The notes under the pieces were generated by a model, which saw only the letters and a list, made by a program, of their open reading frames with translations, had not been told where the DNA came from and searched no databases. A program made the translations under genes and the position numbers. Of a DNA stretch of 64,000 nucleotides, positions 13,562-17,889 are shown one piece after another. Every line of letters starts with the position of its first letter. Position 1 is the stretch's first letter. Source of the stretch: Sphingobium scionense (GTDB lineage Bacteria; Pseudomonadota; Alphaproteobacteria; Sphingomonadales; Sphingomonadaceae); contig NZ_JACIEU010000007.1 in NCBI RefSeq assembly GCF_014197035.1, forward strand, positions 1-64,000. Direction: 5' to 3'.

Positions 13562-13819
13562 TCAATTGTTGTTGCGCAACTTGTCAGCCGCATCGCGCGC
13601 GGCTTCGCCGACGATCCGGGCGCCATTGTCGACCGAGTCCGCTGCCTGGGTAATGGCATCGGCGCGCCGGTCCTGACGACTTTCATTGGTAAGGTAGAAG
13701 AAACCGATAGCCAGGATCAGGGCCAGCGCGACCAGCGCGAAGACAATACCGCCGCTGCCCTGCGGCCGATCACCGCGCCGAGCCGTCCGATCCTGTCGAT
13801 GTTGCGGGTCGTTGCCCAT
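13562..13819 (-). CDS. Small single-pass membrane protein, probably EcfG-controlled
   Basis: The 85-residue protein has a basic N-terminal stretch, one transmembrane helix (GIVFALVALALILAIGFFYL) and a hydrophilic C-terminal tail (DSVDNGARIVGEAARDAADKLR) that looks amphipathic. The ATG at 13819 is chosen over the in-frame ATG at 13837, because the Shine-Dalgarno-like GGAAGG lies inside the longer version, nine bases before the second ATG. An EcfG-like promoter (13846-13871) precedes it. It lies directly downstream of ecfG in the same direction. I do not recognise the family; a stress-related membrane role is inferred from position. Confidence 0.75.
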   Translation of the reverse strand: MGNDPQHRQDRTARRGDRPQGSGGIVFALVALALILAIGFFYLTNESRQDRRADAITQAADSVDNGARIVGEAARDAADKLRNNN

Positions 13820-13845
13820 GGCCTGCGTCCTTCCCATGCCATTTC

Positions 13846-13900: not shown

Positions 13901-14647
13901 TCAATAGTCGGCGGCTTTGCCCGCGATATCATCATCGCCGTCATCGTCGGCGCCATGGTCGACCAGGTTATCCGAGATGCGACCGCGGCTCAGGCGATCG
14001 ACATCGTCCATGATCTCGTCAAGCACGGCCGTATCGGTCGTTGCCTGCGTCCGGCGTGACGGGAGCGAACCATCTTCGAGAATCTGTTCCAGTGCAGATC
14101 GACCACGCGCAACGCGGCTCTTGATCGTTCCAACCGCGACGCCGCAAATCTCCGCCGCTTCCTCATAGGCAAAGCCGCCCGCGCCAACGAGGATCAATGC
14201 CTCGCGCTGGGGCTGGGGCAATTGCAGCAGGGCACGCTGCATGTCGGAGAGTTCGACATGCTTGTCCTGCCCCGCCGGCGCCGCGAGCAGTCGATCAGCG
14301 GTCAGATCGTCCCAGTCGCCACGGAAGCGCGAGCGACGCATCTGCGAAAGATAATGGTTGCGCAGGATGATGAAGGTCCAGGCGCGCATGTTGGTGCCGG
14401 CCTGGAAACGGGCACGGGCGGCCCACGCCTTCAGCAGCGTTTCCTGCACGAGATCATCGGCGGTATCGCGGTTACCCGACAGGGATCGTCCGAAGGCGCG
14501 CAGATGAGGAATGACAGCAGCCAGTTCACGCTTGAACTCGCTGTCCGACAATGCCTCGCGCGGCGCCTGATTCAGCCCTTCATCCACGGCAGCAACCCCC
14601 GTCTCGACTGTCGCCCTCGCGGCATGAACCGAAGTCGTCAAAGCCAT
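13901..14647 (-). CDS. ecfG: General stress response sigma factor EcfG
   Basis: This 248-residue ECF sigma factor has region 2 (LRAFGRSLSGNRDTADDLVQ, then FQAGTNMRAWTFIILRNHYL) and region 4 (LPQPQREALILVGAGGFAYEE, VAVGTIKSRVARGR) with the spacing of the EcfG group, plus an unusually long acidic C-terminal tail of about 60 residues (DNLVDHGADDDGDDDIAGK). NepR normally sequesters EcfG until phosphorylated PhyR releases it. phyR, nepR and a PhyP-like gene lie within 3.3 kb, which makes the assignment firm. It probably shares the perfect EcfG promoter at 14889-14913 with the small ORF in front of it, giving positive feedback. A second, weak site (GGAAT-N17-CGAT) lies just upstream of its start. 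Confidence 0.93.
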   Translation of the reverse strand: MALTTSVHAARATVETGVAAVDEGLNQAPREALSDSEFKRELAAVIPHLRAFGRSLSGNRDTADDLVQETLLKAWAARARFQAGTNMRAWTFIILRNHYLSQMRRSRFRGDWDDLTADRLLAAPAGQDKHVELSDMQRALLQLPQPQREALILVGAGGFAYEEAAEICGVAVGTIKSRVARGRSALEQILEDGSLPSRRTQATTDTAVLDEIMDDVDRLSRGRISDNLVDHGADDDGDDDIAGKAADY

Positions 14648-14728
14648 ATATGCATCCGCACCCTAGATCGATTACCGCCAAAGGCCAATTCCTGAGATAC
14701 CCCTAGAAATGCCCATTTTTCTACTGTC

Positions 14729-14860
14729 TCACCGCCAGATTACGAGCAGCATCGCAATCACCGCCAGCGCGAGCGAGATGCCCAGCACATAACGGACGAC
14801 GTGCGGCGTCGTGCCACTCCGCGCATCCTGCGTTGAAATATGCTGTTCCTCGTCGGCCAT
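14729..14860 (-). CDS. 43-residue single-pass membrane protein between phyR and ecfG
   Basis: The reading frame runs from ATG at 14860 to TGA at 14729. It encodes a hydrophilic N-terminal half (MADEEQHISTQDARSGTTPH) and a C-terminal transmembrane helix (residues about 22-41, VRYVLGISLALAVIAMLLVI). A strong ribosome binding site (GGAGAGG) lies six bases before the ATG. A perfect EcfG promoter (14889-14913) precedes it by about 30 bases, and ecfG follows 81 bases later in the same direction. It is too short for default gene calling. I do not recognise a family. The layout suggests a stress-induced small membrane protein, possibly a modulator of the locus; that role is inference. Confidence 0.75.
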   Translation of the reverse strand: MADEEQHISTQDARSGTTPHVVRYVLGISLALAVIAMLLVIWR

Positions 14861-14888
14861 TGGCCCTCTCCGATCGTTACGCATATTC

Positions 14889-14913
14889 AACGCGCCATGT
14901 CGGGGAGGGTTCC
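14889..14913 (-). promoter_or_regulatory. Perfect EcfG-type promoter
   Basis: On the minus strand GGAAC (14913-14909) and CGTT (14892-14889) are separated by exactly 16 bases, the published alphaproteobacterial EcfG consensus. Transcription would start around 14882, just before the 43-residue ORF, and continue into ecfG. Confidence 0.85.
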
Positions 14914-14953
14914 GCCGACCGTCACAAAGGATCAGCCGGCGGGAAGGCGAGGG

Positions 14954-15748
14954 TCAGGCCGGGGCGGTCGCCTCGTCAAAGAAAAGGGCCTGCGAAATCG
15001 CGGCCTTGACGGTCGAACGCTGGAACGGCTTGGTAATGAGGAAGGTCGGCTCGGGCCGTTCGCCGGTCAGCAGCCGCTCGGGGAAGGCGGTGATGAAGAT
15101 CACCGGCACCGAAAATTCGGCCAGGATGTCCTTCACCGCGTCGATGCCGCTTGAATCGTCGGCCAGCTGGATGTCGGCCAGCACCAGGCCGGGACGTTCC
15201 GCCAGCGCCTCGCGCACCGCATCCTCACGGGTGACGGCAATGGCCGTGACATCATGGCCAAGGTCGCGCACGATCGTCTCGATATCCATCGCGATGATCG
15301 GCTCATCCTCGATGATCAGCACCTTGGCGCGGGTCTGCGCCTCGATTTCCGCCAGCGCTTCCTCGACCAGCGCTTCGACATCCGCCGCGTCGAGGCCGAT
15401 CAGATAGCCGGCATCTTCAGACGTGAAGCCTTCGAGCGCGGTCAGCAGCAGCGCCTGGCGCGGCAACGGGGTCAGGCGCGCAAGGCGGGCATGGGCGATC
15501 GCCTCCTGCCCGAGCGAGCCCGAAAAACCGGGTTCGTCGTCGAGGTGAGAGGACGACCAGATCGCATGAAAGGTCTTGTAGAGGCCGAGGCGCGGATCGA
15601 CACCGCTGGGGAATTCCTCCGGCGCGGCGACGATCGCTTCCAGCGTGGCGCGCACATAGGCATCGCCATGGGTCTGGCTGCCGGTCAGCGCGCGCGCATA
15701 ACGCCGCAAGAAAGGAAGATGGGGGTGCAGTTGCTGTCCAAGCGACAT
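14954..15748 (-). CDS. phyR: General stress response anti-anti-sigma regulator PhyR
   Basis: This 264-residue protein joins an N-terminal sigma-factor-like domain (about 5-135, ending DAADVEALVEEALAEI) to a C-terminal receiver domain (about 141-258; IIEDEP, phosphoacceptor D192 in VLADIQLADD, K240 in FLITKPF). Phosphorylated PhyR binds NepR through the sigma mimic and frees EcfG. The start at 15748 is chosen because similarity begins at MSLGQQLHPHL and GGGAGAAG lies upstream. A longer frame to 15919 adds a stretch without family character. It is divergent from nepR. No consensus EcfG site for phyR itself was found. Confidence 0.95.
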   Translation of the reverse strand: MSLGQQLHPHLPFLRRYARALTGSQTHGDAYVRATLEAIVAAPEEFPSGVDPRLGLYKTFHAIWSSSHLDDEPGFSGSLGQEAIAHARLARLTPLPRQALLLTALEGFTSEDAGYLIGLDAADVEALVEEALAEIEAQTRAKVLIIEDEPIIAMDIETIVRDLGHDVTAIAVTREDAVREALAERPGLVLADIQLADDSSGIDAVKDILAEFSVPVIFITAFPERLLTGERPEPTFLITKPFQRSTVKAAISQALFFDEATAPA

Positions 15749-15915: not shown

Positions 15916-16081
15916 TCACTCTCGTCCGGTTTTTTCGACGGTAACAGCTTTTTGGTGAAATTTGCCCAGCTTGGTGAATTGACGCCGCTTTGCGTTGCGG
16001 CGAAATAGCGGATGAGCTGGCGTCACGGATTTAGCTTCAGAGGGGCTGATTTTGGTTTCTTCAACAACGGAACGGGACAGG

Positions 16082-16276
16082 ATGGGAGGGGACATTGACG
16101 TCGGCACGACCATCCACGACCGCGATATGAAGACTGCGCCCACAGCGCGCAAGCGCGGCACCCCTGCAAAGAAGGACGAAGCACAGGTTTCCCAGGTGCT
16201 CAAGTCCGTCTACCAGCGCACGGTCGACGAAGATATTCCCGCAGAAATGCTGGACCTGCTCAGCAAACTGGACTGA
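16082..16276 (+). CDS. nepR: Anti-sigma factor NepR
   Basis: The 64-residue protein carries the NepR core at its C-terminal end (VSQVLKSVYQRTVDEDIPAE followed by MLDLLSKLD), which forms the two helices that clamp EcfG or, on stress, PhyR. The N-terminal part is low-complexity and basic, as usual. The ATG at 16082 with GGGACAGG just before it is preferred; a TTG start at 16052 is possible. It is divergent from phyR and followed 26 bases later by the PhyP-like kinase gene. Confidence 0.93.
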   Translation: MGGDIDVGTTIHDRDMKTAPTARKRGTPAKKDEAQVSQVLKSVYQRTVDEDIPAEMLDLLSKLD

Positions 16277-16302: not shown

Positions 16303-17889
16303 ATGCCACCCCCACAAGGACGCTCCAGATCCCCCATGACCATGTTCGGCGTCTATCTCCGGTCCACCGGCGTCAAGATGTTCCTCATCCTGACGCTTGC
16401 GCTGCTGCCGCTGGGGCTGATCGCGCTCGTGGCTTCGCTGCAGGCGATTCGCACTGCCGACCTTGAGAAGGAAGCATTGCTGCGCGTCGCGGTCACGCAG
16501 AGCGCGCGCAAGCTGACCGCCGACCTCAATGCCGACCGCACCGCGCTGGGCCTGACCGTCAATGCGCTGGCCGACGGGAAGGCGGACGGCGAAATCTGCA
16601 ATCGGTTGTCCTTCTTCCTCACCGCGCAGGACCGGGACGGCATTCGTTTCTATATCTACGACCGGTCCGGCAAGAAACTGTGCGGATCGGCTACGCCGGA
16701 ACCGGTCGGCATCCCGGCTGCGCGCCGCTTTGTCGGTCCGCGCGTCGAACTGCTGCCATCGGGCGATTTCCTGCTGTCGCGCACCCATAGCAGGGACAAT
16801 CGCGTCGCGGCGCTCGCTTATTATGCGCGCCCGCATCTCGAAAGCGTTGCCGACCCGGCGACCGCGCTGCAGAATCGTCAACTCAGCCTGCGCCAGGGCG
16901 AGCGGCAGATGATCGTCAGCCGGCCCGGCAGCCGGATCGATGGCGATAGCAGCAGCCTGTCCGCCCGGCTCGACCCGCCCGACATCTTGCTGACCATGAC
17001 GGTGCGCGAGCCGCCGGCGACGATCGCGCGGCTGCTGTCACTGTTCCTGCCGCTGGTGATGTGGTTTGCCGCCGCCGCGATCGGCTGGTTCGTGGTCAAC
17101 CGGCTGCTGATCCGCCCGCTGGTGCTGCTGCGGCGCCAGGTGGCCGCCTATCAGCCGGGCGAGGTGCTGGAACCGCTGCGGCGCATCCGCACGCCCGCGC
17201 ACGAGATCAGCGACCTGGGCGAGACCTTCCGCGAGATCAGCGAGGATGTCGCCACCCATGAGGCGGAAATGGCCGCCGCGCTCGACACCCAGCGCAAGCT
17301 GACCCGCGAGGTCCATCATCGGGTCAAGAACAACCTGCAGATCATCGCCAGCCTGATCAGCCTGCATGCCCGGTCGGCGCATGAGCCCGAAGCGGTATCA
17401 GCCTATGGATCGATCCAGCGGCGGGTCGATGCCCTGTCGGTGGTGCATCGCAACCATTTCGCCGAACTGGAGGATAATCGCGGCGTCGGTGTACGCCCGC
17501 TGATCAGTGAATTGTCCGCCAGTCTGCGCGGCACCGCGCCGCATGAAGCGCGTCGCTTCGGCATTCAGATCGACAGCGACGACGACCTGCATATCAGCCA
17601 GGACGTCGCCGTCCCGGTCGCCTTCCTGGTGACCGAACTGGTCGAACTGGCGATGCTGTCCGATCCGCGCGCGACGATGCGGATTTCGGTACATCTGGAG
17701 ACTGAGCGGGAGGACCGCGCCCTTTTGCAGATGACCTCCCCCGCATTGCGCGCAGGACCGGCGATGACGGTGCTGCTGGCGGAACGCTATGGCCGGGTGC
17801 TGACCGGCCTGTCGCGCCAGTTGCGATCGCCACTGGACCATGATGCCGAAGCAGGCCGCTACGGCATCGCGATCAGCGTCATTCCCTAA
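16303..17889 (+). CDS. phyP: PhyP-like HisKA_2 histidine kinase with degenerate ATPase domain
   Basis: This 528-residue inner-membrane protein has a transmembrane segment at about 26-45, a periplasmic sensor region, a second segment at about 245-267, a HAMP-like stretch and a HisKA_2 domain with the box EVHHRVKNNLQ (likely H339). The ATP-binding domain is eroded. Where related kinases have ELVTNA it reads ELVELA, losing the N-box asparagine, and no DxGxG motif follows. In Sphingomonas the gene beside nepR/phyR is phyP, reported as a negative regulator (phosphatase) of PhyR; a kinase-dead phosphatase fits this sequence. The start is uncertain: ATGs at 16336 and 16342 are alternatives. Confidence 0.8.
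   Translation: MPPPQGRSRSPMTMFGVYLRSTGVKMFLILTLALLPLGLIALVASLQAIRTADLEKEALLRVAVTQSARKLTADLNADRTALGLTVNALADGKADGEICNRLSFFLTAQDRDGIRFYIYDRSGKKLCGSATPEPVGIPAARRFVGPRVELLPSGDFLLSRTHSRDNRVAALAYYARPHLESVADPATALQNRQLSLRQGERQMIVSRPGSRIDGDSSSLSARLDPPDILLTMTVREPPATIARLLSLFLPLVMWFAAAAIGWFVVNRLLIRPLVLLRRQVAAYQPGEVLEPLRRIRTPAHEISDLGETFREISEDVATHEAEMAAALDTQRKLTREVHHRVKNNLQIIASLISLHARSAHEPEAVSAYGSIQRRVDALSVVHRNHFAELEDNRGVGVRPLISELSASLRGTAPHEARRFGIQIDSDDDLHISQDVAVPVAFLVTELVELAMLSDPRATMRISVHLETEREDRALLQMTSPALRAGPAMTVLLAERYGRVLTGLSRQLRSPLDHDAEAGRYGIAISVIP

Follow-up and report, generated by a model that had tools for sequence, protein, structure and literature searches.

A conserved gene between phyR and ecfG encodes a small predicted membrane protein tied to the alphaproteobacterial general stress response

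Does the interval between phyR and ecfG in Sphingobium scionense encode a further protein, and if so, what might this protein contribute to the general stress response? In the 64,000-nucleotide stretch of DNA analyzed (the window), the minus strand carries, one after the other, phyR (15748-14954), a small gene of 43 codons, here named SM (14860-14729), and ecfG (14647-13901). The product of phyR, which lies upstream of SM, is the anti-anti-sigma response regulator (NF006623, 376.6 bits; cut-off 240); that of ecfG, downstream of SM, is an ECF sigma factor with Pfam matches to Sigma70 r2 and r4, and its name was assigned via the gene order common to the locus of Sphingomonas melonis Fr1. On the opposite strand, divergent from phyR, nepR (16052-16276) codes for the anti-sigma factor (PF18557, 30.1 bits; cut-off 25.7) and is followed by a gene (16303-17889) for a PhyT/PhyP-like HWE/HisKA_2 histidine kinase (PF07568 and PF07536), which is placed like phyT (#1443) in Fr1. 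SM and ecfG are separated by 81 bp (14648-14728), as an earlier reading of the locus, made from the sequence only, had stated. Directly 3′ of ecfG, a frame of 91 codons (13562-13837, minus strand) contains one hydrophobic segment and belongs to no Pfam family; among the 130 loci compared, it has matches at two others (L033 and L034), both of the same genus. In Fr1, nepR2 adjoins ecfG (PMC6599016); the 91-residue frame was rejected as NepR2 because it has no NepR match in Pfam and recurs at just those two loci.

SM opens with an ATG at 14860 and closes with a stop codon ending at 14729; its product is MADEEQHISTQDARSGTTPHVVRYVLGISLALAVIAMLLVIWR. Just before the ATG lies a ribosome-binding site, GGAGAGGG (14864-14871, minus strand), so that the short frame with a strong ribosome site noted earlier is indeed present. 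Since a second in-frame ATG, at 14884, precedes the predicted start of the transcript, and since SM orthologues from the slot between phyR and ecfG are 42-51 residues long, 14860 is the likely start. The frame had also been described as unlisted, which did not hold: Sphingobium records contain relatives under the name “hypothetical protein”, and in Fr1 the orthologue figures among the listed transcripts. The C-terminal transmembrane helix proposed for the protein is predicted for residues 24-42 (14735-14791, minus strand), where the hydrophobic stretch YVLGISLALAVIAMLLVIW reaches a best 19-residue Kyte-Doolittle mean of 2.58; AlphaFold2 places a helix at residues 18-42 when given the single sequence and at 18-41 (numbering without Met) when given an alignment of 56 rows. 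At the N-terminal side of the helix start, a motif, ARSGTTPHVVRYVL (residues 13-26; 14783-14824, minus strand), is conserved in three alignments, with the A, R and G of ARxG and the later R and L invariant or nearly so; near and distant members share the form ARxGxT...RxVLxIS, and many of the distant ones stop shortly past the helix. Given the position of two near-invariant arginines at its N-terminal side, the helix is predicted to have its N-terminus facing inward, and the conserved segment is therefore predicted at the cytoplasmic face of the membrane.

To what extent the gene is a constant part of this locus was judged from 130 sphingomonad phyR loci, comprising those with at least 65% PhyR identity, some with lower identity, and three named records found by means of a promoter motif (L138-L140, all with SM). 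In 104 of them phyR is immediately followed by ecfG in the same orientation; SM lies between the two in 87 of these 104. The other 26 loci, in which phyR has no ecfG behind it, all lack SM at phyR as well (two of them, L177 and L179, are cut off no more than about 220 bp from phyR). In genome G186, where phyR is not followed by ecfG, SM precedes an ecfG about 24 kb from phyR (L087), and among the 17 phyR-ecfG loci without SM there are nine genomes with an SM match elsewhere (G003, G031, G077, G114, G174, G181, G220, G257 and G289). The starts of SM in the 87 loci were assigned by script (72 ATG, 8 GTG, 1 TTG, 6 unresolved), and a GGAG, AGGA, GAGG or AAGG 4-mer precedes the start in 55 of the 87. 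In the phyR-ecfG gap of one locus (L112), the EcfG motif is present and an ATG is preceded by a strong ribosome site; the frame opened by this ATG is unlike SM, possibly through decay or replacement. Record L140 (QDFQ01000002.1), titled Arthrobacter sp. TPD3018, contains a sphingomonad-type phyR-SM-ecfG locus and is probably a mislabelled genome.

Presence of SM also follows that of phyR across the 298 genomes sampled from the sphingomonad family, which as kin are not independent: it was found in 240 of 266 genomes with phyR compared with 8 of 32 without, none of the latter containing a PhyR above the family cut-off. The underlying tallies (235 with and 31 without SM where phyR is present; 8 and 24 where it is not) were read by hand from the search listings, and a later search added five phyR genomes to the first count. 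Three SM hits at E values of 0.0015-0.009, all in genomes without phyR (G173, G118 and G267), were left out, which is stricter than the limit of 0.01 used in the first family search; if counted, they raise the second fraction to 11 of 32.

A search of 5.8 billion database proteins returned 55 matches of 42-73 residues, the identical entry of the protein itself included; the best match other than itself had an E value of 3.5e-17, and those relatives that are named are mostly “hypothetical protein” of Sphingobium. Pairwise dN/dS against the window was noisy (values from 0.48 up to 1.1 in the five pairs listed), and a tree-wide estimate was therefore used. The codon model over the 87 slot orthologues gave an omega of 0.114, that is, purifying selection, and mean differences at codon positions 1, 2 and 3 were 0.464, 0.312 and 0.615. 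The SM frame thus codes for a selected protein. Conservation and Ka/Ks in sphingomonad phyR-ecfG regions were among the checks proposed in the sequence-only reading, and both turned out in favor of the gene. That SM is a chance open frame, for which its shortness and the lack of a Pfam or NCBIfam match would speak, deserves next to no credence: conservation refutes it, with relatives from E = 3.5e-17 onward, thousands of profile matches and selection against amino acid change. Hardly more credible is a cis-acting leader frame, whose translation would control ecfG while the peptide itself is irrelevant. Although the position before ecfG would suit such a leader, its low omega and the pattern of codon-position differences, the variable distance between SM and ecfG, the absence of any Rfam match in 14500-15000, and copies outside the slot that retain the protein and often an EcfG motif all argue against it. 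Both explanations were rejected on the codon evidence and on the copies distant from ecfG.

Known families offered no identity for the product. Nothing credible was found in Pfam for the protein itself or for sets of 56 close, 38 mixed and 34 distant relatives, nor in NCBIfam for the protein and the 38 mixed relatives. It was rejected as a NepR anti-sigma factor (no match to PF18557 or NF051865 at E values up to 1) and as a transmembrane anti-sigma factor (neither Pfam nor NCBIfam gave a match, and the hydrophobic stretch is preceded by about 23 residues). The label of one relative (P0111), aa3 cytochrome c oxidase subunit IV, found no corresponding Pfam match among the 56, 38 and 34 relatives; 12 of the 56 matched Sec61-beta, with a best E value of 0.04 and none above the Pfam cut-off; and the database name “Regulator” carried by some relatives had no Pfam support. 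In the PDB, a sequence search gave only weak similarity, to chains that are unrelated or designed (best E value 0.016).

If SM is made as part of the general stress response, an EcfG-dependent promoter should precede it. The sequence upstream contains a predicted −35 element, GGAAC (14913-14909, minus strand), a spacer of 16 bases and a predicted −10 element, CGTT (14892-14889), with 28 bases from the motif to the ATG of SM and a transcript start predicted near 14882. This is the only exact match with a spacing of 16 in the window, and GGAAC-N17-CGTT has no exact match anywhere in it. Finding at least one GGAAC-N16-CGTT in a window of this kind is not rare by chance (mean of 0.34 per shuffle; 29 of 100 shuffles), and the evidence for a promoter therefore lies in its place and its conservation. 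A perfect GGAAC-N16/17-CGTT occurs between the end of phyR and SM in 55 of the 87 slot loci, compared with 0.1 in dinucleotide shuffles, and in 54 of these 55 it ends 21-42 bases before the SM start (75 bases in the remaining one). Thus, the mark of EcfG regulon members, this motif close upstream, is found at SM, and the full EcfG consensus previously placed about 30 bases before the frame was confirmed. Between SM and ecfG, no perfect motif was present in any of the 87 loci, a pattern that fits a putative unit starting with SM and including ecfG. The perfect motif is absent in 32 of the 87, among them the three Fr1-type records L138-L140. Eight of the 17 phyR-ecfG loci without SM retain an EcfG motif, which may there serve ecfG alone.

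Published expression data from Fr1, a plant commensal used as a laboratory strain, bear on this point. The Fr1 locus is numbered phyT #1443, nepR #1444, phyR #1445, ecfG #1447 and nepR2 #1448, and #1446, a “hypothetical protein”, appears in the RNA-seq results (Table 1) with a log2 change of −6.2 in the ecfG mutant under low stress, among the largest in the table rows shown (PMC6599016). The motif upstream of #1446 ends 2 bases before the predicted start and scores 9.76, below the authors' cut-off of 10; in the main text, the gene occurs once, as this table row, in which no function is given (PMC6599016). This motif was found as an exact 25-mer in three genome records, L138-L140, Fr1 itself not being among them, and in each it lies between phyR and ecfG. 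In L139 and L140 it is followed by an in-frame ATG after 2 bases, as in Fr1, and, after 8 bases, by the conserved ATG, which is the only one of the two in L138. Because the 25-mer lies just before the SM start and the gene order is shared, #1446 is identified as the SM orthologue. For the proposed expression under EcfG, this Table 1 value of the Fr1 orthologue is the published evidence (PMC6599016). As the mutant lacks the gene adjoining #1446, this value may formally also reflect a local effect of the deletion. With just 8 bases between the end of the EcfG-like motif and the conserved ATG in L138-L140, the transcript may start at this ATG or close to it, possibly giving a leaderless mRNA. Among the titles and opening lines of abstracts that a search of open-licence literature listed, none is concerned with SM. 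By position, promoter and the published expression of one orthologue, the SM family is tied to the alphaproteobacterial general stress response.

Is it the position before ecfG, or control by EcfG, that has been kept? Among 28 SM copies outside the slot, a perfect EcfG motif lies within 160 bp upstream in 13 (0.13 expected), and a motif with at most one mismatch in 24 (1.3 expected). These 28 include L087, which precedes an ecfG, L016, which is the same gene as L092 and lies about 1.6 kb from a phyR, and a second copy in the source genome (L137). Because copies outside the slot often have their own motif, control of the protein by EcfG, rather than its place before ecfG, seems to be what is conserved, and this speaks against a role confined to the vicinity of ecfG. 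The second family member in the source genome (75 residues; G000 C16:27625-27846, L137:1474-1698) has no EcfG-like motif within 160 bp. Four unlinked sphingomonad copies (L207, L208, L213 and L228) adjoin a dapD-like gene, recognized by eye, and next to those in L208 and L213 there is also a Hva1_TUDOR-like gene (assigned to PF11160 from the L208 protein); this is possibly a second stress cluster.

Such copies are what would be expected if SM were an effector of the general stress response, that is, if the EcfG-made protein changed the inner membrane itself (its stability, its curvature, or the activity of transporters or respiratory complexes) and lay near phyR and ecfG through clustering of the regulon. 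EcfG motifs on copies outside the slot, genomes with two copies, and copies beside the dapD-like and Hva1_TUDOR genes all speak for it. We consider an envelope effector nearly as likely as the reading that we favor, a feedback partner at the membrane, and place it close behind because of the copies away from the locus and the two copies in some genomes. Against it, the conserved segment is short and predicted to be cytoplasmic, and SM lies within 10 kb of phyR in ten non-sphingomonad family labels (four of them by weak matches only), which is more than expected of scattered regulon genes.

This linkage came from a profile of 38 rows, which detected an SM relative in 55 of 387 sampled genomes of the class, PhyR being present in 74. 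Both occurred together in 45 genomes, SM alone in 10, PhyR alone in 29, and neither in 303 (Fisher p of 2e-29, uncorrected for kinship and, like all Fisher and binomial values here, a guide only). Thus, phyR was present in 45 of 55 carriers of SM versus 29 of 332 non-carriers, and SM in 45 of 74 genomes with phyR versus 10 of 313 without. Outside the sphingomonad family, 39 genomes contain both; 20 of them have the pair within 10 kb, and these 20 span the family labels f5, f35, f37, f51, f66, f93, f107, f114, f135 and f146. In six of the 20 (G478, G701, G470, G662, G574 and G689) the SM match is weak (E values of 4.8e-6 to 2.4e-5), and the linkage in f35, f51, f107 and f146 comes solely from such matches; the match in G703 holds three stops. 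These seven were judged by coordinates, and without them 13 linked genomes with six labels are left. In G362, G643 and G534, phyR lay beyond the stretch fetched.

The neighborhoods of 40 non-family SM loci (mostly the stronger rows of the profile search plus G367; flanks of about 6 kb unless the contig ended sooner) contained phyR or ecfG in 12 cases and neither in 28; for three of them (L262-L264) no start codon was found. As controls, the 44 non-overlapping window frames with 150 or more residues were searched against the same 40 loci at an E value of 1e-20: ecfG matched 11 and phyR 10, and the other 42 frames matched none. A perfect EcfG motif lies within 200 bp of 4 of the 40 copies (0.05 expected), and one with at most one mismatch in 14 (1.8 expected). 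Comparison of the profiles of the distant and the close SM sets gave a probability of 98.9%, and the distant profile has 3163 matches among database proteins at E values up to 0.001. Taken from sequence comparison, these results support SM as a lasting genomic associate of the general stress response locus. The interpretation offered in the sequence-only reading is thus supported in part: conservation of a membrane-type small protein, its EcfG motif, the EcfG dependence of #1446 and the genomic association all agree with it, and modulation of the response and co-transcription with ecfG stay putative.

What, then, might SM do? Our leading reading, held tentatively and at somewhat less than even chances, is that SM is a conserved, predicted single-pass protein of the inner membrane, encoded first in a likely EcfG-driven unit with ecfG, and that, from its place in the membrane, it probably exerts feedback on the general stress response. 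Stress would lead EcfG to make SM, whose ARxGxT...RYVL segment would dock on a membrane-bound protein of the stress response, prime candidates being PhyT or another HWE/HisKA2 kinase, and docking would alter the phosphorylation level of PhyR or its hold at the membrane. Feedback is favored because NepR, NepR2 and PhyT, regulators of the same locus controlled by EcfG in Fr1, act in this way (PMC6599016). A point of control at the membrane exists, as PhyT holds PhyR there in unstressed Fr1 cells and passes phosphate to it, until stress causes its release (PMC5898713). Apparently made under EcfG and with its conserved segment at the predicted cytoplasmic face, SM would be in a good position to modulate PhyT or another of the HWE kinases.

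PhyR at the membrane of unstressed Fr1 cells, together with the presence of phyR, nepR and ecfG in the same locus, would also accommodate a role of SM in tethering or docking PhyR, NepR or EcfG, rather than a kinase, at the membrane. We regard this as improbable, since the membrane localization of PhyR in Fr1 depends on PhyT (PMC5898713) and the cytoplasmic part of SM, about 23 residues, has no NepR or anti-sigma match. In favor of the feedback reading, we counted the conservation of the slot, the motifs in and out of it, #1446 of Fr1, the co-occurrence with phyR, and the linkage in the class. Counted against it were the 32 of 87 loci without a perfect motif, the 17 of 104 without SM, the second copy without a motif, the carriers lacking phyR (8 in the family, 10 in the class), the 28 of 40 non-family loci with neither phyR nor ecfG, and the few motifs at non-family copies (of 40 copies, 4 with a perfect motif and 14 with no more than one mismatch). 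Genomes with two copies fit an effector as well as a regulator and were therefore also counted against it. The further-reaching form of the feedback reading, in which an EcfG-made family of 40-100-residue single-pass proteins is an overlooked membrane part of the core system that binds PhyT or HWE kinases via ARxGxT...RYVL and closes a feedback loop, appears somewhat less likely.

The described parts of this stress response are PhyR, NepR, EcfG and the HWE kinases. A family that recurs near phyR or ecfG in several bacterial families, and elsewhere often has its own EcfG promoter, would be a further part, through which the shut-off of the response and the adjustment of its membrane kinases become testable. 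Closest to SM is #1446 of Fr1, which occupies the same slot between phyR and ecfG, has the 25-mer before its start, and is strongly EcfG-dependent (PMC6599016, Table 1). NepR and NepR2 resemble it in being small, encoded at the same locus and, in Fr1, controlled by EcfG. NepR acts as an anti-sigma factor and NepR2 is a PhyR-binding protein (PMC6599016), whereas SM has no NepR match and has a predicted membrane helix. PhyT (formerly PhyP), described as a membrane-bound phosphotransferase of Fr1 (PMC5898713), is like SM a membrane component of the locus. PhyT is a large kinase-like protein, however, whereas for SM no domain apart from a single helix is predicted. In enterobacteria, SafA, MgrB and AcrZ are one-helix membrane regulators of sensor kinases or transporters, each of which binds a larger membrane protein. 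They have the single helix in common with SM, belong to a different class and regulon, and are likened to it by description only.
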